From assembly GCF_024298905.1 (NCBI RefSeq), contig NZ_CP101154.1, forward strand, positions 2,914,001 through 2,978,000: 64,000 bases of DNA, in the 5' to 3' direction. A model generated the notes under the pieces. That model did no database searches. It was not told the origin of the DNA and worked only from the letters and a program-made list of their open reading frames with translations. How positions within the stretch are numbered: position 1 is the first letter of the stretch; each line of letters opens with the position of its first letter. The stretch comes from Natronomonas marina (GTDB taxonomy: Archaea; Halobacteriota; Halobacteria; Halobacteriales; Haloarculaceae). Made by a program: the position numbers and the translations under genes. Shown one piece after another: positions 10,048 to 56,392 of the stretch.

Positions 10048-10108
10048 GCCCCGAAGTGGATGGACGTCCTATCACTGATCACGACCCCGCGACCGCACTG
10101 ACCACCGC

Positions 10109-25475: not shown

Positions 25476-26246
25476 ATGGGCAATGAGAGTCCCGACAGGG
25501 ACGCAGTGAAATCCGTCGAGACCACGTTTGCCGTTATCAACGCGCTGTACGAACTCGATGGGGCCGGCGTCTCGGCGGTCGCAACGGAACTGGACATGGC
25601 CAAGAGCACGATCCACAAGCACCTCCGGACGCTGACGGACGCGGAGTACGTCGTTCGTGAAGGCGATCAGTATCACGTCGGTCTGCAGTTCCTCGAGCTG
25701 GGGGAGTTCGCCCGGACGAGAAAGGAGGGGTACACGATAAGTCGGGCCAAAGTAAAGGAACTCGCAGAGGAAACCCAGGAACGGGCCCAGTTCATCGTCG
25801 AAGAGCACGGCCGCGGCGTCTATCTGTACCGGGAAGTCGGCGAGCGAGCGGTCCACACCGATCCCGGCATCGGCAAGCGGATCCCGCTGCACTCGACGGC
25901 GGCCGGAAAGGCAATCCTCGCCAACCTGCCCGAAGCGCGGGCCGAAGAAATCGTCGAAACCCGAGGCCTCGAAGCCGTCACCGAGAACACCATCACCGAA
26001 AGGGGGGAGCTATTCTCCGAACTCGCTACCATCCGAGAACGGGGATACGCGTTCAACCTCGAGGAGAACGTCCCCGGCCTCCACGCGGTCGGGGTCGCGG
26101 TTACGCCCAACGGGACGGACGTCTGTGGCGCCTTGAGCGTTTCCGGGCCGAGCCACCGCCTGCGAGACGACCTCCTCCGGACCGAAATCCCGAGACGGCT
26201 CCTCGGGACGGTCAACGAACTCGAACTGAATCTCAAGTACTCGTGA
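25476..26246 (+). CDS. IclR-family transcriptional regulator
   Basis: 256 aa. The N-terminal winged helix (about 10-75) contains V-A-T-E-L-D-M-A-K-S-T-I-H-K-H-L-R-T-L, and the effector-binding domain (about 85-250) has R-I-P-L-H-S-T-A-A-G-K-A-I-L-A and A-L-S-V-S-G-P, both typical of IclR. Such proteins sense small carboxylates or aromatics and repress or activate catabolic genes. The divergent CaiC-like ligase is the most likely target; the IclR gene is otherwise isolated, with a long gene-poor stretch downstream. Confidence 0.93.
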   Translation: MGNESPDRDAVKSVETTFAVINALYELDGAGVSAVATELDMAKSTIHKHLRTLTDAEYVVREGDQYHVGLQFLELGEFARTRKEGYTISRAKVKELAEETQERAQFIVEEHGRGVYLYREVGERAVHTDPGIGKRIPLHSTAAGKAILANLPEARAEEIVETRGLEAVTENTITERGELFSELATIRERGYAFNLEENVPGLHAVGVAVTPNGTDVCGALSVSGPSHRLRDDLLRTEIPRRLLGTVNELELNLKYS

Positions 26247-27959: not shown

Positions 27960-28763
27960 CTATTCGGCCATCCAGCGGTACGGCGTGCCGACCTCGTGGT
28001 CCTCCTCCATCTGGGGGACGCCCCGGACGAACATGTTCTCGCCGATGATGTACGAGGAGGCGGGGCTGGCGAGGAACTGGGTGAGATCGGCCACTTCCTC
28101 GCTCTTGCCGACGCGGCGGCGAACCTCCGAGCGGTCGATCTCCTCGGCCGAGAACCCCATCTGGTCCTCGACGCCGGGCGTGGCGACGATCCCCGGCGAG
28201 ATGCAGTTGATCCGGATGTCGTACGCCGACCACTCGTAGGCCAGCGAACGGGTGAGGTTGATGACGCCCGCCTTGGCGGCGCCGTAGTGGGTCATCAGCG
28301 GCGAGCCCCGTTCGCCGGCGACCGACGAGAAGTTTATCACCGACCCGCCCCCGTCGTCGCGCATGTACTCGCCGGCCACTTGCGTGCAGTGGTAGGTCCC
28401 GTGGAGGTTGATGTCGACGATGGTCTTCCAGCCGTTCTCGCTGATGTCCTCGAACGGGGCGACGAAGGACGCGCCGGCGTTGTTCACGAGCGTGTCCAGT
28501 CCGCCGAACTCCTCGACGGTCGTCTCGACGAGCGCCTCGACGGCCTCGCGGTCGCGGATGTCGCACTCGACCGCGACTGCTCGCCCACCACCGTCGGTCT
28601 CGTTGATCCCGTCGGCGACGGGGCCGACGTTGTCCAGTTCCCGCGAGCAGACCACCACGTCGGCGCCTTCGTCGGCGAACTGTTCCGCGATTAGCTTTCC
28701 GATCCCTTGCGATGCACCCGTTATTATCGCCGTCTGGCCGTCTATGTCGAATCTTTCGTTCAT
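27960..28763 (-). CDS. Short-chain dehydrogenase/reductase (SDR)
   Basis: 267 aa. Cofactor motif T-G-A-S-Q-G-I-G, N-N-A-G, the catalytic Ser in F-S-S-V and Y-G-A-A-K are all present, so it is an active classical SDR. C-terminal residues V-R-G-V-P-Q-M-E-E are non-standard. It probably interconverts a hydroxy- and ketoacyl-CoA, or another alcohol and ketone, with NAD(P). It follows the ligase at 28845 on the same strand after 81 bases. Confidence 0.92.
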   Translation of the reverse strand: MNERFDIDGQTAIITGASQGIGKLIAEQFADEGADVVVCSRELDNVGPVADGINETDGGGRAVAVECDIRDREAVEALVETTVEEFGGLDTLVNNAGASFVAPFEDISENGWKTIVDINLHGTYHCTQVAGEYMRDDGGGSVINFSSVAGERGSPLMTHYGAAKAGVINLTRSLAYEWSAYDIRINCISPGIVATPGVEDQMGFSAEEIDRSEVRRRVGKSEEVADLTQFLASPASSYIIGENMFVRGVPQMEEDHEVGTPYRWMAE

Positions 28764-28844: not shown

Positions 28845-30518
28845 TCAGCCCTCGATTCCCTCGCGTTCCCGGAGGTCCGTCCGTCGGAGCTTCCCCGTGC
28901 TGGTCCGCGGGAGTTCGTCGACGAACTCGAGTTCTCGCGGGTACTCGTAGGCTGCCAGCCCGTCCTTGACGTACGACTGGAGGTCCTTCCGGAGCCCCTC
29001 GGACGGCTCGTACCCGTCGAGAAGCACGACGAACGCCTTCGGGACCTCGCTCCGTTCCTCGTGGGGGACGCCGATGACGCCGGCGTCCGCGACCGCCTCG
29101 TGTCCGCCGAGGTAGTCCTCGACCTCGTCGGGGCCGATCCGGTACCCCGAGGAGATGATCACGTCGTCCTTGCGGCTCTTGAACTGGAAGTAGCCGTCCT
29201 CGTCGCGGAACCCGAGGTCCTCGGTTATCAGCCAGCCGTCCTTGACCTTCCCCGCGGTCTTGTCGGGTTTCTTCCAGTACTCCTTGAAGCAGACGGGATC
29301 GTCCCCGTAGCGGACGGCGATCTCCCCGATTTCACCCGTGTCGACCGTCGGTTCGGCCGTCTCGGGGTCGACGATCCGGATCTCGTGGCCGGGCGCCGGA
29401 AGTCCCAGCGTCTCGGGGCGGTTCTCCTTGAGGCTCGGGAAGTTCCCGAGCAGCATGTTCGCTTCCGTCTGGCCGTAGCTCTGTATGATGACGTCGCCGA
29501 AGACCTCGACGGCCCACTCCCAGGCGCTCTGGTCGAGCGCCTCCCCGCCGGTCGGGATAGTCCGGATACTCGAGAGGTCGAACCGTTCCTCGGCATCGGG
29601 GACCTGGGCCATCATCCGGAGTATCGTGTTCGGGAGGATGTTCACCGACACGTCGTACTCCTCTATGAGTTCGAACTCCACTTCCGGATCGAACTCGCCG
29701 TGGTAGCCCACCACCGGCCGTCCGTAGTAGAGGGCGGGCATTACCAGTGCGAACAGCGACCCGAGCCACGACCACTCGGTCGGGATTCTGAAGACATCGT
29801 CTTCGTGGAGTTCGAGGTTACAGAACCCCGCGCTGAACAGCGGCAAGTGTCCGAGGAGGAGTTCGTGCGTGTGCACGACGCCCTTCGGATCTCCCGTCGT
29901 TCCCGAGGTGTAGATGATTAGCGCGTTGTCGGTGGCTTCGGTCTCGACGGTCTCGAAGTCGGTGGAAGCGCCCTCCATCGCCTCGGTCAACGATATCTCG
30001 TCGCCGGCCGGCTCGATCCCGCTCGTGACGAAGACGTCCTGCAGGTCGTCGACGTCGTCGCGGACCGTCCGGAGCGTTTCGATGTTTCCGGGGCCCGTGA
30101 CGTAGGCTTTCGCGCCGGAGTCCTCGAGCCGGTACTGGAGGCCGTCCGGCCCGAACCGGGCGCTCAGGGGAACCACGACCGCACCCAGTTTCTGGATGGC
30201 GACGTGGGTCACCAGTACCTCCGGTGTCGGGGACCCGTCGACGCCGACCCGGTCGCCCCGACCGACGCCCCGGTCCGAGAGGAGGTTCGCAAGCTGATTG
30301 GCCTCCGTCTGGAGCCTGGAGAACGTGTACGTCGTCTGATTGCCCGCGGCGTCCTCGAAGTACGCCGCATCCCGCTCGCCGTCCGAGTCCGCCCACCGGT
30401 CACAGGCCCACTCCGCCATATTGAACTGGTCCGGTATCACCCACTCGAACTCCCCGTAAAGCTGCTCGTAGCTGTCCCACTCCTGCTCGTGGAGATCGTA
30501 GTTCGGCAGTTCTTGCAT
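28845..30518 (-). CDS. AMP-forming acyl-CoA ligase (haloarchaeal ~556-aa paralogue family)
   Basis: 557 aa. Motifs Y-T-S-G-T-T-G-D-P-K-G, Y-G-Q-T-E, the Y-G-D-D-P segment, the hinge G-W-L-I-T-E-D-L-G and the C-terminal catalytic Lys region R-T-S-T-G-K-L-R-R are all present. It shares the N-terminal L-H-E-x-E-W-x-x-Y-E-x-L-Y block with the ligases at 40039 and 60136. It activates an unknown acid for the SDR/crotonase genes alongside, and uptake could be by the TRAP system directly downstream. A reverse-strand TTTACACTTTT near 30545 is a promoter candidate. Confidence 0.92.
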   Translation of the reverse strand: MQELPNYDLHEQEWDSYEQLYGEFEWVIPDQFNMAEWACDRWADSDGERDAAYFEDAAGNQTTYTFSRLQTEANQLANLLSDRGVGRGDRVGVDGSPTPEVLVTHVAIQKLGAVVVPLSARFGPDGLQYRLEDSGAKAYVTGPGNIETLRTVRDDVDDLQDVFVTSGIEPAGDEISLTEAMEGASTDFETVETEATDNALIIYTSGTTGDPKGVVHTHELLLGHLPLFSAGFCNLELHEDDVFRIPTEWSWLGSLFALVMPALYYGRPVVGYHGEFDPEVEFELIEEYDVSVNILPNTILRMMAQVPDAEERFDLSSIRTIPTGGEALDQSAWEWAVEVFGDVIIQSYGQTEANMLLGNFPSLKENRPETLGLPAPGHEIRIVDPETAEPTVDTGEIGEIAVRYGDDPVCFKEYWKKPDKTAGKVKDGWLITEDLGFRDEDGYFQFKSRKDDVIISSGYRIGPDEVEDYLGGHEAVADAGVIGVPHEERSEVPKAFVVLLDGYEPSEGLRKDLQSYVKDGLAAYEYPRELEFVDELPRTSTGKLRRTDLREREGIEG

Positions 30519-30661: not shown

Positions 30662-31957
30662 TCACCCGGCCAGGTTCGGGAGGAAAAGCGTCAGTTCGGG
30701 CACGAAGATCAGGAGTGCGAGCACGATGATGTCGGCGACGATGAACCGGAGCGCCCCGCGGAACCCGACGTCGACGTCGACGTTCATCGGCCCCGTGGCG
30801 ATGTAGACGTTCAGGCCCAGCGGCGGCGTCACCAGTCCGATCTCGATGGTCTTGGCGATCAGGATGCCGAACCAGATCGGATCGAACCCCAGGGAGGTCG
30901 CGAGGGGAAAGGTGATGGGCAGCGTCAACAGGAGGATCGCCAGCTGGTCCATCATCGTCCCCAGGGCGATGTAGATCACGAGGACGAACATCAGGATGCC
31001 GAGCGGCCCGATGGGCAGCGACGTGACGAAGTCGATGATCGCCGGCGTGACGCCGGTGACGGTCAGGTATCTGGCGAAGAACACCGCACCGATGATGATC
31101 ATGAAGATCATCGTGGTCGTCTCCGCCGTACGCTGGAGGGCCTTGACGGTTCCCTCGAACCGCATCCCGAAGACGACCACCGCCACGACGAACGTCCCGA
31201 ACGCGCCGAGCGCACCGGCCTCTGTCGGCGTGACGACGCCGAGATAGAGGCCGCCGATCACCAGCAGGACGATCATCAGCGCGGGCCAGATCGTCAGCAA
31301 CGATCGGAACCGCTCGGGCCAGGAGTACTTGACTGTCCCGCCACCGATTACGTCCGGCTCCCGGAGCCCCCAGGCGTAGATGACGGCGACGTAGCTCCCG
31401 ATCGTCAGCAGTCCCGGGACGATCCCCCCGATGAACAGCGCGCTGATCGACGTCTCGGTCTGGATGCCGTAGATTATCAGCCCGAGGCTCGGAGGGATCA
31501 TCACGGCGAAGGTGCCGGCCGCGCTGACGGTACCGAAGGAGAGCCGGTCGTCGTACCCGAACCTGCGCATCTCGGGGACCGCGATCTTCGACATCGTGGC
31601 CGCCGTCGCCGTGCTCGACCCCGAGAGCGCGGCGAGCCCGCCGCTTGCGAGGGTGGTCGTGATCGCGACCCCGCCGGGGATGTTCCCGAACCACTTGTGG
31701 GCCGCCTCGTAGATCACCTCGGTCAGGTCGCTCTCGTTGAGGAACTCCGCCATCAGGATGAACATCGGCACCGTCGCCAGGAGGAAGAACGCCACGTTGC
31801 TGTAGGGCACTGTCAACATCAGCCCCGCCATCCTGTCGACCCCCAGCGTCATGGCGAGGCCGACGACGCCGGCGATGGACAGCGAGAACGCCACGGGCAC
31901 GCCGAGGAGTATCAGCGCCACCAGCAGAACCGACGGCAGGACCAGTTCGACTACCAT
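30662..31957 (-). CDS. TRAP transporter large permease (DctM type)
   Basis: 431 aa, extremely hydrophobic, about 12 membrane segments. It carries the DctM hallmarks V-P-V-A-F-S-L, G-G-L-A-A-L-S-G-S-S-T-A-T-A-A-T, P-P-S-L, and T-P-P-L-G-L-N near the C-terminus. It couples Na+ or H+ entry to uptake of the ligand delivered by the DctP protein. Its start overlaps the DctQ stop by 7 bases. Gene order P-Q-M on the minus strand is the normal TRAP order. Confidence 0.95.
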   Translation of the reverse strand: MVVELVLPSVLLVALILLGVPVAFSLSIAGVVGLAMTLGVDRMAGLMLTVPYSNVAFFLLATVPMFILMAEFLNESDLTEVIYEAAHKWFGNIPGGVAITTTLASGGLAALSGSSTATAATMSKIAVPEMRRFGYDDRLSFGTVSAAGTFAVMIPPSLGLIIYGIQTETSISALFIGGIVPGLLTIGSYVAVIYAWGLREPDVIGGGTVKYSWPERFRSLLTIWPALMIVLLVIGGLYLGVVTPTEAGALGAFGTFVVAVVVFGMRFEGTVKALQRTAETTTMIFMIIIGAVFFARYLTVTGVTPAIIDFVTSLPIGPLGILMFVLVIYIALGTMMDQLAILLLTLPITFPLATSLGFDPIWFGILIAKTIEIGLVTPPLGLNVYIATGPMNVDVDVGFRGALRFIVADIIVLALLIFVPELTLFLPNLAG

Positions 31958-32808
31958 TCGTCCCCTCCGTCGGTCGCCCGACCGTCGTCTTCGTCCTCGT
32001 CTCCGGTACGCGACGCCTCCGGGGTGGTATCGGCCTCGTCGGACGCGTCCCCGGCGTCCGAACTCCCGGTCGCGGATCCCCCGTCGGCCCCGCCCCGGTC
32101 GTCCGTGGCGGCGTCGCCTCGCTCCGGGGGCTCGTCGGCGTCACCGGCCTCCCCCCCGATGGCCTCCTGTACGTTCTCGATAACGCCGGTCCCGTCGACG
32201 GTCTGGAAGGGGACGTCCGACTCCACCTCCTCTTGGGTCGCCCCCGAACCGTCTCCCCCGGTGACCAGCGTTCGGAGGTCCGATCCGATCTGGATCGTCA
32301 GCCGCAGGCAAAACAGCGCGAACCCGACGGACATGACCGCCCACGAGAGGTACGTCGGGAAGTTGATCACGCCGGTCGTGACCTCTCCCGCGAGGTACCC
32401 CTCCCAGGACCGGACGGCGGCGAGTTGGGAGATCCACCCGAAGATGACGAGCGTCGCCAGCAGGGAGACGATCCGGATCACCCTGTTCGAGCGGTCCCCG
32501 AACCGCGTCGAGACGATGTTGACGTCGACGTTGCCCTCGTTCTTCTGGAGGTACGAGGCCGTGAGGAACACCGCGATCGGCATGAAGAACAGCTCGGTCG
32601 ACCTGTAGATCCCCGAGAATGGGTTGTCGAACAGATACCGGCTGACGGCGTTGGCGGTGATGGTCACCATCATGAGAAACAGCGCGACCAGTGCGAGGTA
32701 GTTGAACCCCTGCTCGATCCCGCTGGAGATCCGTTCGATGCCGTCGGCCGCGGTGTCCAGGTAGCCCCCCGGCTCGTCGCCCGCTTCCTCGACCGTTTCA
32801 CCGGACAT
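31951..32808 (-). CDS. TRAP transporter small permease (DctQ type) with long acidic tail
   Basis: 285 aa. The first about 175 residues form a four-helix DctQ membrane subunit (N-Y-L-A-L-V-A-L-F-L-M-M-V helix, then F-F-M-P-I-A-V-F-L). The last about 105 residues are a low-complexity Asp/Glu/Gly/Ser/Thr tail ending D-G-G-D-E-W, not needed for the family fold (typical length 160-190 aa). The tail is probably disordered and salt-adapted; its role is unknown. It sits between DctP and DctM in one operon. Confidence 0.9.
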   Translation of the reverse strand: MSGETVEEAGDEPGGYLDTAADGIERISSGIEQGFNYLALVALFLMMVTITANAVSRYLFDNPFSGIYRSTELFFMPIAVFLTASYLQKNEGNVDVNIVSTRFGDRSNRVIRIVSLLATLVIFGWISQLAAVRSWEGYLAGEVTTGVINFPTYLSWAVMSVGFALFCLRLTIQIGSDLRTLVTGGDGSGATQEEVESDVPFQTVDGTGVIENVQEAIGGEAGDADEPPERGDAATDDRGGADGGSATGSSDAGDASDEADTTPEASRTGDEDEDDGRATDGGDEW

Positions 32809-32965: not shown

Positions 32966-34099
32966 TCACGAACGGACCGAGTCGATCTCGGACTGCCAGG
33001 CGTCGACGAGGTCCTGACCCGGGAGGCCCCTGTCGCTCATCTGGGAGGTCCAGGAGTCTACCGACTCCGTCATCCGGTCGCTCCAGCGGGCGTACTCCTC
33101 GTCCGGGACCTCGTACAGCTCCACGCCCTGTTCCTCGAAGTCAGAGCGCAGGTCCGAGACCATGCTGTCGAAGGCCGCACCCGCCTCGGCGGAGGCTTCG
33201 GCGCCGGCTTCGAGCATCGCGTCCTGTACGTCGCCCGGGACGGACTGGAAGGTGTCCTCGCTGGTGGTCCACAGCCCGACCCAGCTGGCCAGGTTCACGT
33301 TGGTGCTGGCGTAGTTGGCGAACGGTACCAGCGAGTACGCGGTCACGCTGGGTTCCGCGATAGCGGTCCCGTCGATGGTCCCCCGGTCCCAGCTCGTGTT
33401 GATCTCCGGAGCCTGGATCTCGACGGGGGTCCCGCCGAGCGCCTCGATGGTGATCGACATGATCCCGCCCGGAGAACGGACGTTGACGCCCTCCCAGTCC
33501 TCCAGTTGTACGACTTTCGGCTCCGTCGTCACGATCTGGTAGGGCGCCTCCAGACTCAGGTTCACTACCCGGATGTCCTGCTCGCTGTACTCGTTCTCGT
33601 GGAGCTGGTTCTGCGAGAGGTTCCAGTACGCCTCACAGCCGACTTCGGCCTCGAAGAAAGTGTCGGGGAGTTCCCCGACCCCGGACAGCGGGATCTGATC
33701 GGAGAGGTACGCCGGGCTCACGAGGCTGATGTCGGCGGTCCCCTGCTTGATGAGCGAGAGCATGTCACCGGGGCTGCCGAGCTGTCCCCCCGGTTTCTCG
33801 TCGAAGGTGACCTCCGAGTCCGCCTTCGACTGCACCTTCTCCATCCACGGTAGCAGCGCCTCCTGGCGGATGTGGTGTGACTCCGGCAGGAAGTGAGCGA
33901 CCGTCAGTTCCGTGCTTCCGCCCCCGCCTCCATTGCCGTTGCCGTTCCCGCCACCGTTTCCGTTGCCGTTCCCGCCGCCGTTGCCGTTCCCGCCGAGACA
34001 ACCGGCGATACCCGTCATGCCGACGGCCCCGAGGGCACCGGCCGACTTCACGATCGATCGCCTATCGCTCAAGACGTGTTGCTTGCCATCTCCTGCCAT
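32966..34099 (-). CDS. TRAP transporter substrate-binding lipoprotein (DctP type)
   Basis: 377 aa. R13-R14 and the hydrophobic run lead to the lipobox I-A-G-C34, so it is Tat-exported and lipid-anchored, followed by a Gly/Asn linker (about 36-62). The domain T-V-A-H-F-L-P-E-S-H-H, P-G-G-Q-L-G-S-P-G-D-M, W-E-G-V-N-V-R-S-P-G-G and G-T-A-I-A-E-P match DctP, including the Arg that binds carboxylate ligands. It should collect an organic acid outside the cell for DctQM. Reverse-strand GGTACTTATCAC at 34123-34134 is the promoter candidate. Confidence 0.94.
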   Translation of the reverse strand: MAGDGKQHVLSDRRSIVKSAGALGAVGMTGIAGCLGGNGNGGGNGNGNGGGNGNGNGGGGGSTELTVAHFLPESHHIRQEALLPWMEKVQSKADSEVTFDEKPGGQLGSPGDMLSLIKQGTADISLVSPAYLSDQIPLSGVGELPDTFFEAEVGCEAYWNLSQNQLHENEYSEQDIRVVNLSLEAPYQIVTTEPKVVQLEDWEGVNVRSPGGIMSITIEALGGTPVEIQAPEINTSWDRGTIDGTAIAEPSVTAYSLVPFANYASTNVNLASWVGLWTTSEDTFQSVPGDVQDAMLEAGAEASAEAGAAFDSMVSDLRSDFEEQGVELYEVPDEEYARWSDRMTESVDSWTSQMSDRGLPGQDLVDAWQSEIDSVRS

Positions 34100-34346
34100 A
34101 CCCGCGAATGCGAGGCGAGGTACTTATCACTTCCGGGAGCCTCGTCGAACGGTTACGGTACCGGAGCACGGAGAAACGTCGTGGTGGACGGGTCCACCGA
34201 TTCGGGGGACGCCGTCCAGTAGAGGTGGTCCTCGGTGCCGTGGCGGTGGTGGCGCCGTCGCTGTTCGAGCGTCCGCCCTCGGATTTCTCGACTGGTACGA
34301 CGTGTTCGGCGGGTTCCTCGGCGGACGGGGGTAGGTCATGAACAAA

Positions 34347-34357
34347 CCTAATATACT
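34347..34357 (+). promoter_or_regulatory. TATA-like box for the ACAD10/11-like operon
   Basis: CCTAATATACT, centred 32 bases before the ATG at 34384. It is the only AT-rich element just upstream and probably serves both the dehydrogenase and the kinase gene. Confidence 0.55.
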
Positions 34358-34383
34358 GGGGAATCCAGTGGTTCGGGAAGCAC

Positions 34384-35619
34384 ATGATCGAGTACACGGA
34401 TCCGGAACGCGGCGAGGAGATGGCAGCGCGGACGGGCGAGTTCATGGACGAGGTCGTCATCCCGGCCGAACGCGAGTTGCCGGGCGGCGAGCCGGTATCG
34501 GACGCGAAGGTACAGGAACTGCAGGAGCGAGCCAGGGAGTACGACGTCTACGGCCCCCACCTCCCCGAGGAGTACGGTGGGCACGGGCTCGACTTCCGCT
34601 CGATGCTCCCCGTCTTCGAGCAGGCGGGGCGGAGCCTGCTGGGGCCGCCGGCCATGCGTGTCAACGCACCCGACGAGGGGAACATGCACCTGCTGGAGTT
34701 GGCCGGCACGGACGAACAGAAGGAACGGTGGCTCCGTCCGCTCGCCGAGGCGGAGATACGGTCGGCGTTCTCGATGACCGAGCCGACCGACGGCGGGGGC
34801 GCCGACCCGAAGATGATCAAGACGACCGCCGAGAAGGACGGCGACGAGTGGGTCATCGACGGCCACAAGTGGTGGACCAGCCAGGCAACCGAGGCGAGCC
34901 TGCTGATCGTCATGGCCCGGACCGACCCCGACGCCCACCCCTACAGCGGCACCTCGATGTTCCTCGTCGACCCCGACCAGGCCGGCGTCGACATCGTGCG
35001 GAACATCCCACACATGGGCGATTCGGTCCTTCCGATGACCCACGCGGAGGTCCGCTACGACGGCGTCCGCGTCCCGGAAGATGCCGTGCTGGGCGAGTTG
35101 AACGAGGGCTTTACGCTCGCCCAGCAACGCCTGGGCCCGGCGCGGCTGACCCACTGTATGCGGTACTCCGGGATGTGCGAGCGGGCGCTGAACGTCGCCA
35201 AGGCGTACATGGCCGAACGGGAGGCCTTCGGCGAGCGCGTGGCCGACAAGCAGGCGCCGCGCTACGACATCGCCGACGCGGAGATGCAGCTGTACGCCGT
35301 CCGGTCGATGGTCCGCCACGCCGCCCGCCGGATCGCCGCCGGCGAGCAGGCCCGCGTCGAGACCGCCTCCTGCAAGGTCTTCGGTGCCAACGTCTTCCAG
35401 GACGTCGTCGACACCGCGCTCCAGGTGTGCGGCGGCCACGGCATCGGCAAGGACCTCCCGATCGCGGACTTCTACGAGAACGTCCGCGTGCTCCGCATCG
35501 CCGACGGCCCCGACGAGGTCCACAAACGGACCGTCGCCCGCGCCGCCTTCGAGGAGATCGTCGACGCCGAAGTCGAGGACATTCCCCGGTTCGGCGACCC
35601 GAAACGACCGGGAGAGTGA
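34384..35619 (+). CDS. ACAD10/11-like acyl-CoA dehydrogenase
   Basis: 411 aa. It has the ACAD fold (S-M-T-E-P, K-W-W-T-S-Q-A), but the C-terminal signature is R-I-A-D-G-P-D-E-V-H rather than Y-E-G-T-x-x-I-Q. This D-G-P-D-E-V-H form is characteristic of ACAD10/ACAD11 and of LvaC-like enzymes that process 4-phospho-acyl-CoAs made by an APH-fold kinase. The adjoining gene at 35621 encodes just such a kinase, one base after this stop, so the pair mirrors the fused human proteins in split form. Expected role: with the kinase, convert 4-hydroxyacyl-CoA via a phosphorylated intermediate to a 3-hydroxy- or 2-enoyl-CoA. Substrate assignment is inference from family. Confidence 0.88.
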   Translation: MIEYTDPERGEEMAARTGEFMDEVVIPAERELPGGEPVSDAKVQELQERAREYDVYGPHLPEEYGGHGLDFRSMLPVFEQAGRSLLGPPAMRVNAPDEGNMHLLELAGTDEQKERWLRPLAEAEIRSAFSMTEPTDGGGADPKMIKTTAEKDGDEWVIDGHKWWTSQATEASLLIVMARTDPDAHPYSGTSMFLVDPDQAGVDIVRNIPHMGDSVLPMTHAEVRYDGVRVPEDAVLGELNEGFTLAQQRLGPARLTHCMRYSGMCERALNVAKAYMAEREAFGERVADKQAPRYDIADAEMQLYAVRSMVRHAARRIAAGEQARVETASCKVFGANVFQDVVDTALQVCGGHGIGKDLPIADFYENVRVLRIADGPDEVHKRTVARAAFEEIVDAEVEDIPRFGDPKRPGE

Positions 35620-35620
35620 G

Positions 35621-36700
35621 ATGACCGGCGACGAACCCGTCGACGGGAGCTACCTCGACCGGCTCGTCGACCGGGACCGCCTCGAGACGTACCTCGAGTC
35701 GGTGTTCGGCCCGGCGGACGCCTTCGAGGTGGAACACCTCGGCGAGGGCCACTCGAACGAGACCCTGCGGATCACATGGGGGCAAGAGGAGTTCGCCCTC
35801 CGCCGACCGCCGCCGGGCGAGACGGCGGACACCGCACACGACGTCCTCCGGGAGTACCGGGTTATCGACGCCCTGCAGGGCGAACTCCCGGTTCCGCCGA
35901 CGGTCGAGAGCTGTGACGACCACTCCGTCGTCGGCAGCGACTTCTACATCACCGAACTCCTCGAGGGCGACGTCATCCGCGAGACCGAACCCGAACGGTT
36001 CGCGGCGCCGGCGCACCGACGCCGGATCGGCGAGGAACTGATCGACACGCTCACCGAGATCCATACCGTCGACTACGAGGCGGTCGGGCTGGGCGATTTC
36101 GGACGGCCCGAGGGGTACCTCGAACGGCAGGTCGACCGGATGACGAAGCAGATCGAGTGGGCGACCGAACGCACCGAACGGGAACGGACGGTTCCCGAAC
36201 TCGAGGAGGTCGGCCGGTGGCTGTCCGCGAACGTTCCCGACTCCCCGACGCACACGCTGGTTCACGGCGACTACAAGCTCGACAACGTCATGTTCGGCCC
36301 GGGAACGCCGCCGGAACTGGTGGCGGCCTTCGACTGGGAACTCAGCACGCTCGGCGATCCGCTGGCGGATCTGGGCTGGCTGTTCGTCTTCTGGCGCGAC
36401 GAGGCCGACCCCGATCCGGCCATCCCGGAGGTCGTTCCGTCGTTCACCGAACACGAGGGGTATCCGACCCGGGGCGAACTCGTCGACCGCTACGAGGAGC
36501 GGACCGGCATCGCCTTCGAAAACCAGGCGTTCTACCGGACGTTCGCCCTCTACAAGGTCGCGGCGGCGTGTGAGATGTTCTACGCCAGATACCTCGAGGG
36601 CGACAGCGACGACTCGCTGTATGCGGTCATGGACGAGCGCGTCCCGGCGGTGGCAAAGCGGGCCCTCGAGGCGACCGACGAGAGCGGGTGGTCGAGCTAG
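35621..36700 (+). CDS. APH-fold kinase, ACAD10/11-N or LvaA-like
   Basis: 359 aa. Kinase motifs: L-G-E-G-H-S-N-E-T glycine-rich region, H-G-D-Y-K-L-D-N catalytic loop (Brenner motif) and the metal-binding F-D-W-E-L-S-T-L-G-D-P-L-A-D-L. This sub-pattern (D-W-E-x-x-x-x-G-D-P-x-x-D-L) is that of acyl-CoA-associated phosphotransferases rather than antibiotic kinases. It probably phosphorylates the 4-hydroxyl of a hydroxyacyl-CoA for the dehydrogenase at 34384. The stop of that gene and this ATG are 1 base apart, so expression is coupled. A similar kinase lies at 56871. Confidence 0.88.
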   Translation: MTGDEPVDGSYLDRLVDRDRLETYLESVFGPADAFEVEHLGEGHSNETLRITWGQEEFALRRPPPGETADTAHDVLREYRVIDALQGELPVPPTVESCDDHSVVGSDFYITELLEGDVIRETEPERFAAPAHRRRIGEELIDTLTEIHTVDYEAVGLGDFGRPEGYLERQVDRMTKQIEWATERTERERTVPELEEVGRWLSANVPDSPTHTLVHGDYKLDNVMFGPGTPPELVAAFDWELSTLGDPLADLGWLFVFWRDEADPDPAIPEVVPSFTEHEGYPTRGELVDRYEERTGIAFENQAFYRTFALYKVAAACEMFYARYLEGDSDDSLYAVMDERVPAVAKRALEATDESGWSS

Positions 36701-36704: not shown

Positions 36705-38681
36705 CTATCGCTCCCAGCGCGGCGTGTCGTCTTCGAGGAACGCCGCCAACCCGTGTCGTCCCTCCTCGGTCTGGATCAGCGCCGTGAGTTCGCTCACGGC
36801 GTAGGCGAGCCACGCGTCGAACAGCTCGTTCTCCATGCCGACCCAGGTGTCCTTGATGGTCTCGATCGACTGCGGCGCCGCGGCCGTCGTCGACCGGGCC
36901 AGTTCCCTGGCGACGTCTTCGGCCTGTCCGTCGTCGACCGCGTAGTTGACCAGCCCGATGTCCGCGGCCTCGCTGGCCGACAGCAGATCGCCCGTCATGG
37001 CCAGTTCCATGATCTCCTTCTTGCTTGCGGTCGTGATGCCGTACGTGAGCCAGGCCGGCGGAATGGCACCGATCGTGGCCTCGGGCTGGCCGAACCGGCT
37101 CCCGTCGGCGGCGACGCCGAGGTCACACAGCAGCACCATCTCGCACCCGGCGCCGGTCGCGATGCCGTCGACGAGCGCGATCGTCGGTTTGGGGTGGGCC
37201 CGCAGCGTCTCGATCGTCGGGAGGGCGACCTCGTCGAAGTAGGTCGAGCCCTCGTCGGCGGTCTCCCAGCCCTGCATCTCGGCGATGTCATCGCCGGCCG
37301 AGAAGGTGTTGCCCGCACCCCTGATGATGGTCGCCCGCACGTCGTCGTCCTCGGCGGCGTGTTCGAGCGCCGCCCGGAGGCCCAGCCAGCTCGTCTCGTC
37401 CATCGCGTTCAGCTTCGACGGCCGGTTCAGCGTGATGATCGCCGCGAAGTCCCGTCGTTCGTACGTGATCGTGTCGAACGTCTCCGATTCGAACTCGTGG
37501 TCGTAGAACCCCTCGCCGGCCTTCAGACCGAGGCGCCCGTCCTCGACCATCCGCTCCAGCATCGGATGGGGCTCGTACTGGTCCCATCCGGTCCGCTCGT
37601 GGAGCTCCTCGAGCGTCTCGACGATCCGGTCGATGCCGTACTCGTCGGCGAACTCGAGGAGCCCTCGCGGCCAGTTCATCCCGATCTGCATGGCCGTGTC
37701 GATGTCCTCCCGCGTGGTCACGTCGTTGTCGATGAGCCAGGCGGCCTCGTTCGTGGCGCTCGCCATCATGTACAGCGGGTTGAACTCGAAGCGCCGCTCG
37801 CGGGGGATCGACACCCGCGAGTACTCGCCCGGTTCGGGGTACTCGTAGAAGCCCTCGCCCGTCTTCATGCCGTGTTTGCCCGCGTCGACCAGTTCCTCTA
37901 AGACGTCGGGAACGTTGACCGAAACGCCGTGATCGCGCATCTCGCGCGCCGCCAGGAGGAACATGTCGAGGCCGCTGAAGTCGAGTATCTCGAACGGCCC
38001 CATCGGGAACCCGAGGCGCCTGACGGAGGCGTCGATCGCCTTCGGCTCCTGCTCGCCCTCGTCGACGCGCCGGAGTGCCTCGCTCCAGAACGCGTAGTTG
38101 ATCCGGTTCAGGACGAACCCGGGGACGTCCTTCTCGACGAGGACCGGCGTCTTCTCCAGCCGTTCGGCGAACCGCTCGGCGAACTCGAAGATCCGATCGC
38201 TCGTCTCCTCGCCGCGGATCACCTCGACGATCGGCATCAGCTGGACGGGGTTCGAGAAGTGCATCCCGACGACCGACTCGGGACGGTCGGTCGCCTCGGC
38301 GATCTCGGTGATCGGGAGCGTACTGGTGTTGGTCGCAAGCACCGCCTCCTCGGGCATGACGTCGTCGGCATCCGAGAACACCTCCTCCTTGAGGTCGAGA
38401 TTCTCCGGCACGGCCTCGATCATCACGTCGGCGTCGGCGAGTCCGGCCCGCCGGTCGGTCGTCGTCTCGATCCGATCGAGGACCGCGTCGGTGTCCTCGA
38501 CGCCCATCTGTCCGAGGCTCCCCTCGATCTTCTCGACTGCGTTCTCGAGGACCTCCTCCTCGACGTCGACGATGGTGGTCTCCAGTCCGGCCACGGCAGA
38601 CACCTGTGCGATGCCGTGTCCCATCGTTCCCGCACCGATCACCGTGACTCTCCGTACGTCGTCCGCCTCTGGCACGCTCAT
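36705..38681 (-). CDS. 3-hydroxyacyl-CoA dehydrogenase / enoyl-CoA hydratase fusion
   Basis: 658 aa. Residues 1-about 390 are a 3-hydroxyacyl-CoA dehydrogenase: V-I-G-A-G-T-M-G-H-G-I-A for NAD, the G-M-H-F-S-N-P-V substrate segment with catalytic His, then duplicated C-terminal domains. Residues about 400-658 are a crotonase domain with F-S-A-G-D-D-I-A-E-M and G-Q-P-E-A-T-I-G-A. This dehydrogenase-first order is opposite to bacterial FadB and is the haloarchaeal type. It carries out hydration and oxidation in beta-oxidation. It converges with the ACAD10/11-like pair and could take their product. Reverse-strand GAATATTTAAAT at 38707-38718 is a strong TATA box with 31-base spacing. Confidence 0.95.
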   Translation of the reverse strand: MSVPEADDVRRVTVIGAGTMGHGIAQVSAVAGLETTIVDVEEEVLENAVEKIEGSLGQMGVEDTDAVLDRIETTTDRRAGLADADVMIEAVPENLDLKEEVFSDADDVMPEEAVLATNTSTLPITEIAEATDRPESVVGMHFSNPVQLMPIVEVIRGEETSDRIFEFAERFAERLEKTPVLVEKDVPGFVLNRINYAFWSEALRRVDEGEQEPKAIDASVRRLGFPMGPFEILDFSGLDMFLLAAREMRDHGVSVNVPDVLEELVDAGKHGMKTGEGFYEYPEPGEYSRVSIPRERRFEFNPLYMMASATNEAAWLIDNDVTTREDIDTAMQIGMNWPRGLLEFADEYGIDRIVETLEELHERTGWDQYEPHPMLERMVEDGRLGLKAGEGFYDHEFESETFDTITYERRDFAAIITLNRPSKLNAMDETSWLGLRAALEHAAEDDDVRATIIRGAGNTFSAGDDIAEMQGWETADEGSTYFDEVALPTIETLRAHPKPTIALVDGIATGAGCEMVLLCDLGVAADGSRFGQPEATIGAIPPAWLTYGITTASKKEIMELAMTGDLLSASEAADIGLVNYAVDDGQAEDVARELARSTTAAAPQSIETIKDTWVGMENELFDAWLAYAVSELTALIQTEEGRHGLAAFLEDDTPRWER

Positions 38682-38988
38682 ATTATCGCTTGTATCGTGT
38701 GGTGTCGAATATTTAAATCCAGGTGCCGAGAGCGCCCCGGTTCACGGCCGACCGGACGCGCTCCCCGATAGGGAGTCGGCCGACGTAATCGGCCGCGTGC
38801 GCTGCCGTCCGGCGGACCGCGTGCGCCGTCCAACGAGGACCGTCGGGGTCCCTCGAGCGGAGTACCCCCTCTCTTTTTGTGCCCGGTAAGCGTACACGGC
38901 GCACGATGGTTCACGGAGACGGTGGTACTGGCTTCGACTGGCAGTGTGCGGTCCCGGACGTCCCGTCCGGTTCCGAGGTAGCGCACCG
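38682..38988. other. Divergent intergenic region (307 bases)
   Basis: It contains the TATA box of the fusion gene (GAATATTTAAAT, 38707-38718, reverse strand) and otherwise GC-rich sequence with no supported gene. No clear TATA element was found near the start at 38989. Confidence 0.5.
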
Positions 38989-39996
38989 ATGACGGGCGAC
39001 GTCGACCGCGAACTCCTGTTGCACGTTCGCGCCCACGACTCGATGGAGTCGGTGCTCCAGCAGATGAGTCGGGCGGAGGAGTTGGACTATCGACGCGTCT
39101 CGATGGGGGAGGCGACGGGGTGGAACCGCGTCGGACTGCTCGCGGTCGGGGCCGAGCGGACCGACGAGATCGGCCTCACGAACGACGTGTTCTCCCCGTA
39201 CTCCCGCTCGCCCGCGTTGCTCGGCCAGACGGCTGCCATGCTCCAGCAGCTGAGCGACGGCCGCTACCGGCTCGGTCTCGGGACGAGTTCGCCAGCGCTC
39301 GTCGAGAACTGGCACGGGCTGTCGTTCGACCGGCCCCTCAGGCGGTTGCGCGAGACGATCGAGATCGTCCGGCGAGTGACCACGGGCGAACGCGTCAGCT
39401 ACGACGGCGAGATCTTCGAACTCGAGGGGCTCCAGCTCGAAGACCCCGCACCGGAGACCGCGCCACCGATCGACGTGGCCACGATCGGCCCGAAGACCGT
39501 CGAGCTGGTCGGTCGGTTCGCCGACGGCTGGGTGCCGCAGATGTTCACCCCCGACGGGCTCCGCGATCGGCTGGAGGACCTCGAACGCGGCAGTGACCTG
39601 GGGGACCGCGACCCCGATGCGGTCCGGACGAGCTTCATCCTCCGGTGCTGTGCGATGGAGGACGGAGAGCGGGCACGGGAGATCGCACGAAACCACCTGG
39701 CGTTCGTCATCGGAGCCTACGGCCCCTACTACAGGAAGTCGATCGAACGGCAGGGGTACGGCGACGTCACGGCGGAGCTACAGGAGCGCTGGGAGCGCGG
39801 CGAACGGGACCGGATGACCGACGCGCTGCCCGACGCCCTGCTGGACGAACTCGTGGCCGCCGGGACGCCGGCGGAGGTCAGAGAGAAGTACGCCGAGTTC
39901 GCCGCCATCGACGGCATCGACGCCGTCCGGGTCGGGTTCTTCGACGGACAGTCGGTCGAGAACCAACTCGAGACGATGGCGGCACTCGCCGAGTAG
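38989..39996 (+). CDS. LLM-class F420-dependent oxidoreductase
   Basis: 335 aa luciferase-like TIM barrel. Key segments: S-M-G-E-A-T-G-W-N-R, G-L-T-N-D-V-F-S-P-Y-S-R-S-P, the G-R-Y-R-L-G-L-G-T-S-S phosphate-binding loop and F-A-D-G-W-V-P. The pattern matches the haloarchaeal NP1902A-type group of F420 enzymes. Hydride transfer via F420 to or from an unknown substrate is expected. The ATG at 38989 is taken; an in-frame start at 38944 adds 15 Arg/Pro-rich residues that do not look native. It converges with the ligase at 40039. Confidence 0.88.
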   Translation: MTGDVDRELLLHVRAHDSMESVLQQMSRAEELDYRRVSMGEATGWNRVGLLAVGAERTDEIGLTNDVFSPYSRSPALLGQTAAMLQQLSDGRYRLGLGTSSPALVENWHGLSFDRPLRRLRETIEIVRRVTTGERVSYDGEIFELEGLQLEDPAPETAPPIDVATIGPKTVELVGRFADGWVPQMFTPDGLRDRLEDLERGSDLGDRDPDAVRTSFILRCCAMEDGERAREIARNHLAFVIGAYGPYYRKSIERQGYGDVTAELQERWERGERDRMTDALPDALLDELVAAGTPAEVREKYAEFAAIDGIDAVRVGFFDGQSVENQLETMAALAE

Positions 39997-40038: not shown

Positions 40039-41706
40039 CTAGTCCAAGATCCCCTCGCGCTCCCGGAGGTCGCGTCGCCGGACCTTGTCGGTGACGGTCT
40101 TGGGTAACTCGTCGATGAACTCGATCTCCCGCGGGTACTCGTACATCGCGAGAGCGTCCTTGACGTAGGCTCGCAGCTGGTCTTTCAGTTCCTCGGACGG
40201 TTCGTACCCGTTCTGGAGGACGACGAAGGCCTTCGGGACCTCGCCCCGTTCCTCGTCGGGAACGCCGATCACGCCGGCGTTGGCGACGGCCTCGTGGTCC
40301 GCGAGGCTCTCTTCGATCTCCGTCGGCCCGATCCGGTAGCCCGCGGAGATGATGACGTCGTCCTTGCGGCTGTGGAACGAGTAGTAGCCGTCCTCGTCCT
40401 TGATGCCGAGGTCGCCGGTCAGCACCCACCCGTCGCGGATCTTCGCCTCGGTCTTGTCCGGCTTGTTCCAGTACTCCTTCAGACAGACGGGGTCGCCCTC
40501 GTACTTCGCGGCGAACTCGCCGATCTCGCCGGGGGCGACAGTCTCGGCGGGGTCGTGCTGGTCGGCCAGCCGGACCTCGTGGCCCGGCATCGCCCGCCCG
40601 ATCTTCCCGATCGGAACGTCCATCAGCGCCTCACAGGAGCCGACCAGCAGATTCGCCTCCGTCTGGCCGTAGGCTTCGTTGAGCGCGGCGCCGCCGAACC
40701 GCTCGTCGACCCAGTCGACGATGTCGGCACCGACCGCTTCGCCGCCCGTAGCGATGACCCGCACCGACTCCGCCGAGTGCGATTCCGCCCCCGAGGCCCG
40801 CATCATCCGGAGCGCCGTCGGCGGCGCGAAGTAGCTCGTCACGTCGTACTTCTCGATCAGCTCGAAAGCCTTCACGGGGTCGAACTCGCCGCCGTTGTAG
40901 GCCACCTGCGGCTGCCCGTAGAACATCGCCGGGAACACGTAGTCGAAGACGAGGATCCACGCCCACTCCGCCGGCGAGAAGAACACGTCCTGTTCGGTGA
41001 GCTCCATATTGCACCACACCAGAAGGAACGTCGGGAGGTGGCCCAGCACCACCCGGTGGCCGTGTCGCGTCCCCTTCGGATCGCCCGTGGTCCCGCTCGT
41101 GTAGACGATTATCAGGTCGTCGTCGGGGCCGGTTCTGACGTTGTCGAACGCCGGCGAACTCCCCTCCAGTGCGTCCGAAAGCCCGATTTCGTCGTTCTGC
41201 GGATCCACGTCCCCGACGACGAGCGTGGTTTCCAGCGCGTCGAGCGAGTCCGTCCCCCGACGGTACGAGTCGACGTTGGCCTCCCCGACGAGACACGCCT
41301 TCGCCCCCGAGTCGCCGAGCCGGTACTCGATGGCGTCGGGGCCGAAGCGCGTGCTCAGCGGCACCGACACCGCACCCATCTTCCAGGCGGCGACGTGAGC
41401 GACGATCGTCTCGGGCCGCTGTGGCAGGTTGATCCCGATCCGGTCGCCGCGCTCTACGCCCCTGCTCTCGAGGTAGTTGGCGAGCCTGTTGGCCCGCTCG
41501 TTGATCTCCCCGAAGGTGTAGGCCCGCTCCGTCCCCGCATCGTCCTCGAAGAACAGCGCGACGCGGTCCTCGTCGTCGGCCCACCGATCACAGATGTAAT
41601 CGGCCACGTTCAGCGTCTCGGGGACCTCCCACTCGAACGCCTCGTAGAGGTCCTCGTAACTGGCCCACTCCTCCTCGTGGAAGTAGTAACTCTCGAGTCG
41701 ATCCAT
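40039..41706 (-). CDS. AMP-forming acyl-CoA ligase (~556-aa family)
   Basis: 555 aa from the ATG at 41706 (MDRLESYYFHEEEW). Motifs Y-T-S-G-T-T-G-D-P-K-G-T, Y-G-Q-T-E-A-N, Y-E-G-D-P, G-W-V-L-T-G-D-L-G and the C-terminal K-T-V-T-D-K-V-R-R with the catalytic Lys are all present. It is very close to the ligase at 60136 and is the likely parent, or sister, of the truncated copy at 47526. TTAACCGTTTCGACC at 41733-41747 (read on the plus strand) covers the promoter, with identical sequence and spacing at the truncated copy. It is divergent from the crotonase at 41908. Confidence 0.93.
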   Translation of the reverse strand: MDRLESYYFHEEEWASYEDLYEAFEWEVPETLNVADYICDRWADDEDRVALFFEDDAGTERAYTFGEINERANRLANYLESRGVERGDRIGINLPQRPETIVAHVAAWKMGAVSVPLSTRFGPDAIEYRLGDSGAKACLVGEANVDSYRRGTDSLDALETTLVVGDVDPQNDEIGLSDALEGSSPAFDNVRTGPDDDLIIVYTSGTTGDPKGTRHGHRVVLGHLPTFLLVWCNMELTEQDVFFSPAEWAWILVFDYVFPAMFYGQPQVAYNGGEFDPVKAFELIEKYDVTSYFAPPTALRMMRASGAESHSAESVRVIATGGEAVGADIVDWVDERFGGAALNEAYGQTEANLLVGSCEALMDVPIGKIGRAMPGHEVRLADQHDPAETVAPGEIGEFAAKYEGDPVCLKEYWNKPDKTEAKIRDGWVLTGDLGIKDEDGYYSFHSRKDDVIISAGYRIGPTEIEESLADHEAVANAGVIGVPDEERGEVPKAFVVLQNGYEPSEELKDQLRAYVKDALAMYEYPREIEFIDELPKTVTDKVRRRDLREREGILD

Positions 41707-41731
41707 ACCGAGACAGGTGCGCACGCTGCCG

Positions 41732-41739
41732 CTTAACCG
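41732..41739 (-). promoter_or_regulatory. Promoter element of the ligase, duplicated at 47879
   Basis: CTTAACCG (plus strand) reads CGGTTAAG toward the ligase and is about 27-32 bases from its ATG. The 15-base block at 41733-41747 recurs exactly at 47879-47893 in front of the ligase remnant. Confidence 0.55.
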
Positions 41740-41907
41740 TTTCGACCGTCCTGGGCGACCGGCGGTCGCGTTTCCGGTCGGGTTCGACCGTCCGGGTGGG
41801 GTCGCATCGGTCGTTGCATCGGGACGAACGGGACGGGAAGTACCGTGGGGCCCGGACGGGCGTCCGGTCGACAGTAGACTTTTTATCGAGCCCGGAGTTG
41901 TCCGTGC

Positions 41908-42705
41908 ATGGCTCGTTCCGACAGCTACGAGGAGTGGGCGGTTTCGGTGAGCGACCACGGGATCGCGTCCGTGGAGTTACGGCACGAGAAGGACGCCATC
42001 GACGAGCGCGGGATGGTGGAGTTCCACGAGATGCTCGGACGGCTCCCCCACCGGGATGACGTGGAGGTCATCCTCCTCACCGGCGGATCGTCGGCGTTCT
42101 GTGTCGGCCTCGATATAGCGACGTTCGTCGACATCTTCGACGCGACGGAAGGCGACGAGGTCGAACGACAGCGCCGGATTCGGGAGTTGATCCACCGGTT
42201 CCACGGGGCGATCCTCGAGATGGCCACCGTCGGCTGTCCCGTGATCGCTGCGGTGAACGGGTTCGCAGCGGGCGGCGGGTTCAGCATCGCGCTGGCCTCC
42301 GACCAGATAATCGCCTCGGCCGACGCCGAGTTCACGCACGCCTACACCGACATCGGCGCGTCCTCCGACGGCGGGAGCACCTACTTCCTGCCCCGGCTCG
42401 TCGGACTCCAGAAGGCCAAGGAGCTGGTCTTCACGCCACAGCCGCTCTCCGCCGACCGGATGGCCGAGCTGGGCGTCGTAAACCAGGTCGTCGAGGAGGA
42501 CTTCGAAGAAACCGTCCGGGAACGCGCCCGGACGCTCGCGGATCGGCCGACGGAGGCCATCGCCCGCAGCAAGCGGCTACTCAACGGGAGCCTCGACGCG
42601 ACGCTCGAAGGACAGCTCGAGCGGGAACGCGAGGATATGGCCGAGATCGTGCTGACCGAGGAGTTCGAGCGCCGCGTCCGCGGGTTCGTACGCGGCGAGG
42701 AATAG
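41908..42705 (+). CDS. Enoyl-CoA hydratase/isomerase family protein
   Basis: 265 aa crotonase fold. It has the oxyanion segment F-C-V-G-L-D-I-A-T-F and V-N-G-F-A-A-G-G-G-F-S. The first catalytic Glu position is Asp in T-H-A-Y-T-D-I-G-A-S-S-D-G-G, as in dienoyl-CoA isomerase-like or PaaG/PaaB-type members. It is similar to the crotonase at 27033 (shared T-Y-F-L-P-R-x-V-G-L-Q). TTTTTATCG near 41879-41887 may be the TATA element. It precedes a PaaI-type thioesterase on the same strand, with a divergent ligase upstream: a small acyl-CoA unit. Confidence 0.9.
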   Translation: MARSDSYEEWAVSVSDHGIASVELRHEKDAIDERGMVEFHEMLGRLPHRDDVEVILLTGGSSAFCVGLDIATFVDIFDATEGDEVERQRRIRELIHRFHGAILEMATVGCPVIAAVNGFAAGGGFSIALASDQIIASADAEFTHAYTDIGASSDGGSTYFLPRLVGLQKAKELVFTPQPLSADRMAELGVVNQVVEEDFEETVRERARTLADRPTEAIARSKRLLNGSLDATLEGQLEREREDMAEIVLTEEFERRVRGFVRGEE

Positions 42706-56236: not shown

Positions 56237-56392
56237 TACCGGCGAGGTTCGAGACACAGCGTAATAATGGTTGGGTCGGGGCGAATGGCGGGACTGCGCC
56301 GCCGTCGGCCGACCGAGGGGCGGTGTCGGGCACCCGCGAGACGGGCGCCCTGGGAAACCTATAAGGCGTTCTCGGCGCAGTATCGTGACGGG

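Follow-up and report, generated by a model that had tools for sequence, protein, structure and literature searches.

Gene Organization of the Locus

On the forward strand of a 64,000 nt stretch of the 4.0 Mb genome of the haloarchaeon Natronomonas marina (contig NZ_CP101154.1, positions 2,914,001 to 2,978,000; the whole stretch is called the window below), a gene for an acyl-CoA dehydrogenase (ACAD) is directly followed by the gene for a kinase of the aminoglycoside phosphotransferase (APH) fold. A first-pass annotation of this DNA had placed the two genes at 34384-35619 and 35621-36700, one base apart, and both the coordinates and the spacing were confirmed, as only a single G at position 35620 separates the ACAD stop codon from the ATG of the kinase. 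Its description of a DGPDEVH dehydrogenase next to an APH-fold kinase is borne out as well, with the motifs DGPDEVH and HGDYKLDN present and the Pfam domains in agreement. The GC content at third codon positions (GC3) of the two genes is 0.92 and 0.89, a coding composition. The pair consists of the following features:

34384..35619, + strand: ACAD of the ACAD10/11-LvaC type, predicted to eliminate phosphate from 4-phosphoacyl-CoA; 411 aa, TGA stop (Pfam, PDB, tree)
35128..35163, + strand: ACAD motif RLGPARLTHCMR, residues 249-260, equivalents of ACAD11 R626, R631, H634, C635, M636 and R637 (alignment)
35503..35523, + strand: ACAD motif DGPDEVH, residues 374-380, with D374 corresponding to D753, the catalytic base of ACAD11 (alignment)
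35621..36700, + strand: APH-fold kinase of the LvaA and ACAD10/11 type, predicted 4-hydroxyacyl-CoA kinase; 359 aa, ATG start (Pfam, PDB, tree)
36263..36286, + strand: kinase motif HGDYKLDN, residues 215-222, with D217 and N222 as equivalents of ACAD11 D220 and N225 (alignment)

Family Assignment and Active-Site Residues

The dehydrogenase carries the Pfam N-terminal, middle and C-terminal acyl-CoA dehydrogenase domains (4.5e-39 for the C-terminal domain), and in the PDB it is matched best by 4hr3 and by three ACAD11 entries, 8v3u, 8v3v and 2wbi (2.1e-63 for ACAD11). The kinase belongs to the Pfam family APH (2.2e-44) and is closest to PDB entries 9o56, 3dxp and ACAD11 (3.4e-44 for ACAD11). 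By these sequence matches to solved ACAD11 structures, the folds of both proteins are settled. Among the listed NCBIfam families, none scored above its cut-off for the pair.

ACAD10 and ACAD11 were assigned a role in 4-hydroxy-acid metabolism in papers from 2024 and 2025: their kinase part forms a 4-phosphoacyl-CoA from which the ACAD part frees the phosphate to yield a 2-enoyl-CoA, and the FAD is thought to be reduced and re-oxidized inside the cycle (PMC11342911; PMC12440821; here and below, papers given by accession are cited from the portions available). In mouse ACAD11, modeling suggests that R626, H634 and R637 bind the 4-phosphate near the catalytic D753; non-conservative changes at these three arginine and histidine positions abolish the ACAD step, while R637K impairs it partly (PMC12440821).

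Residues R249, R254, H257, R260 and D374 of the window ACAD align with ACAD11 R626, R631, H634, R637 and D753, the last of these being a position where ordinary ACADs carry Glu and the window gene carries Asp. An alignment of 88 rows, representing 65 distinct sequences, comprised the query, 58 rows taken from kinase-centered regions and 29 taken from ACAD loci; 87 of these rows keep all five equivalents, the catalytic Asp among them. The sole miss is a mis-cut segment of the second pair of the same genome; the gene itself, correctly read, contains RLAPARVTHCMR and DGPDEVH. The catalytic motif begins with DGA in 85 of the 88 rows and with DGP in two, both of which are the window gene, the remaining row being the mis-cut segment; DGPDEVH, unusual in the family, is thus found in the window ACAD and in the second pair of its genome. 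As a control, the 17 other ACADs of the genome were aligned in the same way: the R626 equivalent, the H634 equivalent and the Asp were each found in none of them, nor did any carry all five residues, whereas the usual Glu occupied the D753 position in 14 of 17 and R631 was present in 17 of 17, as expected. A tree of 58 ACAD rows gave 100/100 support to the split between 40 rows of the phosphoacyl type, a group that includes mouse ACAD11 and bacterial ACADs picked for their HxxR motif, and 18 other ACADs. All 22 rows from haloarchaea clustered together (100/100), and within this cluster the window ACAD and its counterpart in the second pair of the genome were sisters (100/98).

For the kinase, the positions invariant in 98 aligned rows (97 regions plus the window kinase repeated) are D217 and N222, the alpha-C Glu with the Arg preceding it, R169, and the Asp in the DWE motif. 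R169 aligns with the CoA-contacting R176 of ACAD11. The Arg beside the alpha-C Glu is R77; it was counted as ACAD11 position 84 and not 86, so that its match to R86, another CoA-contacting arginine of ACAD11, is uncertain. In a quick tree of 65 kinase rows, the 33 haloarchaeal rows formed one group (100), adjoined by five bacterial kinases (two from Actinomycetota, two from Chloroflexota and one unplaced) with a joint support of 97. Mouse ACAD11, together with 3dxp, branched outside these haloarchaeal and bacterial kinases with weak support (77) in this arbitrarily rooted tree.

Based on these comparisons, the window pair is predicted, with a probability of roughly 85%, to constitute a split system of a 4-hydroxyacyl-CoA kinase and a phosphate-eliminating ACAD, i.e., archaeal counterparts of LvaA and LvaC.

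Co-occurrence and Arrangement of the Pair

A search of related genomes for the pair, which the first-pass annotation had proposed as a check, covered 242 genomes of the class: 124 hold both genes, and the other 118 hold neither (E<=1e-100 for ACAD relatives and E<=1.5e-76 for kinase relatives). In five of the 118, the only match is a distant kinase (7.8e-41 to 2.8e-48) that may belong to another kinase family. Among the matches listed, ten genera contain both carriers and non-carriers, and their members always possess both genes or none. Across 294 genomes of the phylum, an ACAD at E<=1e-65 was detected in 22, all within the order of the window's genome.

These distributions bear on the alternative that the kinase acts on an unrelated hydroxyl compound and that the ACAD is an ordinary dehydrogenase located nearby by chance. 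Substrates of APH-fold kinases are very varied and the NCBIfam matches of this kinase are weak (thiamine kinase and APH(3')), which would leave room for such a scenario. It is nevertheless very improbable in view of the identical distribution of the two genes over the 242 genomes, their homology to the two halves of ACAD11, and the presence of R626, H634 and catalytic Asp equivalents that none of the 17 other ACADs of the genome possesses. A split 4-hydroxyacyl-CoA kinase and phosphate-eliminating ACAD remains the preferred interpretation.

The 150 matches listed for each of the two genes include 62 pairs, from 56 genomes, whose members are no more than 600 bp apart; 58 of these pairs are divergent, two convergent and two tandem. 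Both tandem pairs belong to the window's genome, namely the window pair and a pair at 2847-2850 kb, while a third pair of this genome at 2093-2096 kb is divergent. The tandem order of the window pair looks derived, because the close pairs listed are mostly divergent and tandem pairs occur solely in this genome. Compared with the window pair, the second tandem pair (2847767-2850101) shows 77% identity for the ACAD and only about 60% for the kinase, suggesting that the kinase changed faster or that the two halves have different histories.

Genomic Neighborhood

The genes surrounding the pair in the window include the following:

27960..28763, - strand: short-chain dehydrogenase/reductase (SDR), candidate LvaD-like 4-oxoacyl-CoA reductase (Pfam; kin of the SDR in the Haloferax mediterranei cluster)
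28845..30518, - strand: AMP-forming acyl-CoA ligase, candidate activating enzyme (Pfam; NCBIfam below cut-off)
30662..31957, - strand: tripartite ATP-independent periplasmic (TRAP) transporter subunit DctM (Pfam)
31951..32808, - strand: TRAP transporter subunit DctQ (Pfam)
32966..34099, - strand: TRAP solute-binding protein DctP, candidate organic-acid importer (Pfam, NCBIfam)
34100..34383, no strand: intergenic stretch separating the ACAD-kinase pair (+) from the divergent block of SDR, ligase and TRAP genes (-) (sequence)
36705..38681, - strand: 3-hydroxyacyl-CoA dehydrogenase/enoyl-CoA hydratase fusion, expected to perform the next beta-oxidation steps (Pfam)
38944..39996, + strand: F420-dependent luciferase-like monooxygenase (LLM) family oxidoreductase (TIGR04024), a frequent neighbor of the module (NCBIfam above cut-off)

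Within the intergenic stretch, an AT-rich sequence aacaaacctaatatactgg is located at 34341-34359, i.e., 25-43 bases ahead of the ACAD start. A scan of 34100..34383 for sigma-70-type sites returned none, a scan of this kind not being expected to detect archaeal promoters.

For a wider view, one region of about 20 kb around the kinase (four regions were shorter) was taken from 94 of the 124 carrier genomes, 80 of them chosen by kinase score, with the remaining 30 carriers outside the sample. Twenty arbitrary regions from 19 genomes served as controls; bit thresholds were fixed and the counts include the window. The SDR family was found in 56 of the 94 regions, an ACAD in 55, a protein of the haloacid dehalogenase (HAD) superfamily in 46 (direct search) and relatives of the 3-hydroxyacyl-CoA dehydrogenase/hydratase in 41, each against 0/20 controls, and the F420-dependent LLM enzyme in 32 (1/20 controls). 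Where SDR and HAD genes occur together (39 regions), they always lie on opposite strands and within 3 kb of each other. The window has the SDR, the ligase, the three-gene TRAP transporter and the dehydrogenase/hydratase near the pair, but no HAD gene.

An additional clustering of the genes in these regions used a composition filter and undercounted the HAD family (31/94). It revealed further recurring neighbors, among them a small gene that by eye resembles helix-turn-helix (HTH) regulators in 44 of the 94 genomes (0/20 controls). Annotated regulators near the module comprise a winged HTH protein in H. mediterranei and an Lrp/AsnC protein in Haladaptatus salinisoli; the window itself contains an IclR-type gene at 25278-26246, and further small genes recur in the corresponding regions of three genomes. 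A gene resembling, again by eye, an alpha/beta hydrolase was found near the kinase in 19 of the 94 genomes (0/20 controls); it could encode a lactonase, which would bear on the idea of lactone catabolism.

Elsewhere in the window, a second, different APH-fold kinase with HGD and DWE motifs (56871-58010, - strand) is located beside a gene of the AtuA family (54851-56833, - strand), and this pairing might represent another CoA-ester kinase system. AtuA proteins are associated with acyclic terpene utilization, and another member of the family is encoded at 17832-19220 (- strand). The segment 47572-47893 resembles the ligase gene at 40039-41958, with 85.5% DNA identity over 283 bases, and is perhaps a gene remnant.

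A HAD Protein as a Possible Partner of the Kinase

Members of the HAD family (E<=1e-36) were detected in 87 of the 242 genomes, all of them among the 124 pair carriers, 37 of which lack it; ten further genomes show weak matches (about 1e-16) that probably belong to other HAD proteins. Relative to the kinase and ACAD matches listed, 69 of the 87 genes lie within 20 kb of either partner, 44 of them within 300 bp, and 18 are farther off or on another contig. Among the same matches, HAD genes within 1 kb of a kinase (31) invariably lie upstream on its strand, and those equally close to an ACAD (16) are invariably on the opposite strand.

The window's genome has a single HAD gene of this family; it lies at 2099 kb, at a distance of 3.4 kb from the third pair and not beside the window pair. 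This arrangement raises the possibility that the window pair is an extra copy, idle or in decay, and that the divergent pair at 2093-2096 kb, the only one of the three with the usual layout, the HAD gene and an SDR gene nearby, is the working module. Against this stand the intact window genes with their retained active-site residues and coding composition, as well as their tandem arrangement one base apart beside an SDR, a ligase and a transporter of their own, and we regard an idle copy as unlikely. The reading of the window pair as a kinase and phosphate-eliminating ACAD is kept.

Three archaeal HAD proteins were compared with TIGR02247, of which ACAD10 itself is presumably a member; their scores were 40.6, 32.7 and 32.8 bits, where the cut-off is 125.4, while TIGR02253 scored higher and was also below its cut-off. 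An orthologous relationship to the HAD domain of ACAD10 is rejected on account of scores so far under the TIGR02247 cut-off. Since the archaeal proteins fall below both cut-offs and are nearer to TIGR02253, their likeness to the ACAD10 domain is taken as one of function and not of family membership.

Motif I of the archaeal HAD proteins reads D-x-G-G, so that only the first Asp of the DxD signature is present, in 42 of 44 aligned rows (some genes are represented twice), the other two being stray segments. The HAD domain of ACAD10 likewise has only the first Asp, shows negligible phosphatase activity, and yields a higher kinase activity when this Asp is changed (PMC11342911). In many relatives, the HAD protein whose gene precedes that of the kinase would probably restrain the kinase or take the phosphate off again, a role that is proposed less firmly than the two enzyme reactions and is not directly applicable to the window pair.

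In a scan of named bacterial genomes, the best 80 places corresponded to 79 loci (10 haloarchaeal and 69 bacterial, several of them short), to which the bacterial counts below refer. One kinase locus from Actinomycetota encodes a TIGR02247-like HAD protein that overlaps the kinase reading frame (117.8 bits, cut-off 125.4). A HAD partner is not general in bacteria: by motif search, just 4 of the 79 loci have a HAD protein of similar look no more than 4 kb from the kinase, and 3 of these loci are haloarchaeal. The same type of search found 15 candidate histidine phosphatases within 2.5 kb and on the strand of the kinase in 15 of the 79 loci, and all seven candidates checked against Pfam matched His_Phos_1. 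It is conceivable, although we would place the chance somewhat below even, that the kinase recurrently has a phosphatase-fold partner which restrains or undoes phosphorylation (the HAD domain in ACAD10, the HAD protein of another subfamily in many haloarchaea, the histidine phosphatase in several bacteria) and that the haloarchaeal HAD protein is a dedicated, convergently recruited brake. If so, haloarchaea would offer a simple system for learning the role of the ACAD10 HAD domain, a question that could be tested in an archaeon in which the parts are separate genes.

The Cluster of Haloferax mediterranei

A related cluster is present on plasmid pHME132 of H. mediterranei ATCC 33500, presumably the same strain as DSM 1411, where a 3-hydroxyacyl-CoA dehydrogenase gene and the kinase gene are followed, after a change of strand, by ACAD, HAD and SDR genes (E6P09_RS18905 to RS18930), with a CoA ligase gene a few genes away. 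Identities to the window proteins amount to 65% for the ACAD, 62% for the kinase and 71.5% for the SDR, and the motifs are the same except for DGA in place of DGP. The kinase and ACAD of this cluster have the accessions WP_004060557 and WP_004060558. The cluster differs from the window in its divergent kinase and ACAD genes, in the HAD gene between ACAD and SDR, in its distant ligase gene, and in that the stretch shown contains no TRAP genes. H. mediterranei DSM 1411 has been grown in mineral medium with levulinic acid at rates of up to 0.097 per hour (PMC12455835).

Proposed Pathway

The classification as a split ACAD10/11-type system, already suggested by the first-pass annotation, is upheld by concordant active-site residues, family trees, co-occurrence and lva-like neighbors. 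Both reactions, the order of the steps, the substrate, the use of the neighboring genes and the role of the HAD protein are what we infer from the gene sequences. In the proposed route, an acid would be imported, perhaps via the TRAP transporter, and joined to CoA by the ligase; a 4-keto group, if present, would be reduced by the SDR to give a 4-hydroxyacyl-CoA. The kinase (35621-36700) would then phosphorylate the 4-hydroxyl group at the expense of ATP. The FAD enzyme (34384-35619) would hold the 4-phosphate via R249, H257 and R260 and, with D374 as the base, eliminate it to form a 2-enoyl-CoA, with the FAD cycling internally and without net oxidation. The 3-hydroxyacyl-CoA dehydrogenase/hydratase would finally pass this product into beta-oxidation.

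The SDR, ligase, TRAP and dehydrogenase/hydratase genes would fit the needs of a levulinate-type route. Candidate acids may include levulinate-like C5 compounds, gamma-hydroxybutyrate or a longer 4-hydroxy acid. The catabolism of 4-hydroxy acids or lactones had been put forward for this locus; the former part stands as the best inference, while no specific support for lactones was found beside the window pair.

The same chemistry might, however, serve substrates other than levulinate, such as 4-hydroxy acids of medium or long chain length, gamma-hydroxybutyrate, or hydroxylated terpenoid or aromatic side-chain acids. ACAD11 acts on longer and ACAD10 on shorter chains (PMC12440821). In addition, the three pairs of the genome have different neighbors, and the window is rich in acyl-CoA genes and contains the two AtuA-family genes, which suggests specialized paralogs. 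The SDR beside the pair, on the other hand, would suit a 4-keto acid, and H. mediterranei with its compact cluster grows on levulinate (PMC12455835). On balance, a substrate other than levulinate falls just short of an even chance, and the assignment as kinase and phosphate-eliminating ACAD for 4-hydroxyacyl-CoA would hold with either type of substrate.

Several observations weigh against this assignment. The R637 equivalent is not unique, as Arg occupies this position in 6 of the 17 other ACADs of the genome, and in many genomes the ACAD and kinase genes are not adjacent. The SDR family is present in 113 of the 124 pair carriers (11 lack it) but also in 23 of the 118 pair-less genomes, so that an SDR exclusive to the pair is ruled out. 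Ligases of the window type (>250 bits) were found in only 3 of the 94 kinase regions, the window included, against 0/20 controls. Between the window and H. mediterranei, the dehydrogenase/hydratase is only 38% and the ligases are 31-33% identical, and the available portion of PMC12455835 reports levulinate growth without naming a gene. No gene for an LvaB-like helper lies inside the window pair, and the next gene is 5 bases away. In bacteria, an ACAD with the HxxR motif was found within 5 kb of the kinase in 21 of the 69 loci, and the loci of the five nearest kinases lack an ACAD of the HCMR or HAMR type. Consequently, the tight haloarchaeal pairing is not general in bacteria.

If the assignment is correct, both key enzymes of a phosphoryl route for 4-hydroxy or 4-keto acids are encoded in about half of the sampled genomes of the class (124/242). 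Levulinate use by H. mediterranei would then have a possible genetic basis, and a function could be given to genes whose present annotations are acyl-CoA dehydrogenase, phosphotransferase and glucose 1-dehydrogenase. The enzymes would also represent a salt-tolerant source for levulinate and polyhydroxyalkanoate chemistry.

Comparison with Known Systems

The bacterial lva genes have been described from Proteobacteria (PMC6692424), with relatives of lvaABCD in Alpha-, Beta-, and Gammaproteobacteria (Rand et al., 2017, as cited in PMC6692424). Among the open-access papers listed in the searches, judged by title and the opening of the abstract, none dealt with archaeal genes for this route; most subscription papers lie outside this scope.

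Like mammalian ACAD11 and ACAD10, the window pair contains both catalytic halves together with the named phosphate-binding and catalytic residues. Unlike these fusion proteins, its halves are separate genes, the ACAD comes first and a HAD part is absent. In ACAD10 the HAD domain precedes the kinase, an order that is matched by the HAD and kinase genes of many haloarchaea. The operon of Pseudomonas putida (LvaA kinase, LvaB, LvaC ACAD, LvaD SDR and LvaE ligase) resembles the window in its separate kinase and ACAD genes and in the presence of an SDR and a CoA ligase, for which the window offers nearby candidates likened to LvaD and LvaE by description. The window differs from this operon by its TRAP importer, and no LvaB-like gene separates the ACAD from the kinase or immediately follows them; P. 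putida requires LvaB for growth on levulinate (PMC6692424).

Clusters of the P. citronellolis and Thermus type combine kinase, ACAD and SDR with a histidine phosphatase and, as far as the available descriptions show, thereby share a phosphatase-fold partner with many haloarchaea, where this is the HAD protein. On pTT27 of Thermus thermophilus HB8 (6200-10101), genes for an SDR, an ACAD, a kinase, a DUF6285 protein and a histidine phosphatase are consecutive; the ACAD has RLDPARLTHCMR but lacks DGxDEVH, and in the kinase the loop sequence is HGDFRVGN. The DUF6285 family, which adjoins the Thermus kinase, was found in none of 97 genomes of the class. An identity of DUF6285 with LvaB is not shown; a relative of the Thermus protein lies within 5 kb in 1 of the 69 bacterial loci. 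Taken together, the pair itself belongs to the known ACAD10/11-lva kind, and what is new here is a haloarchaeal module with a HAD partner of its own.

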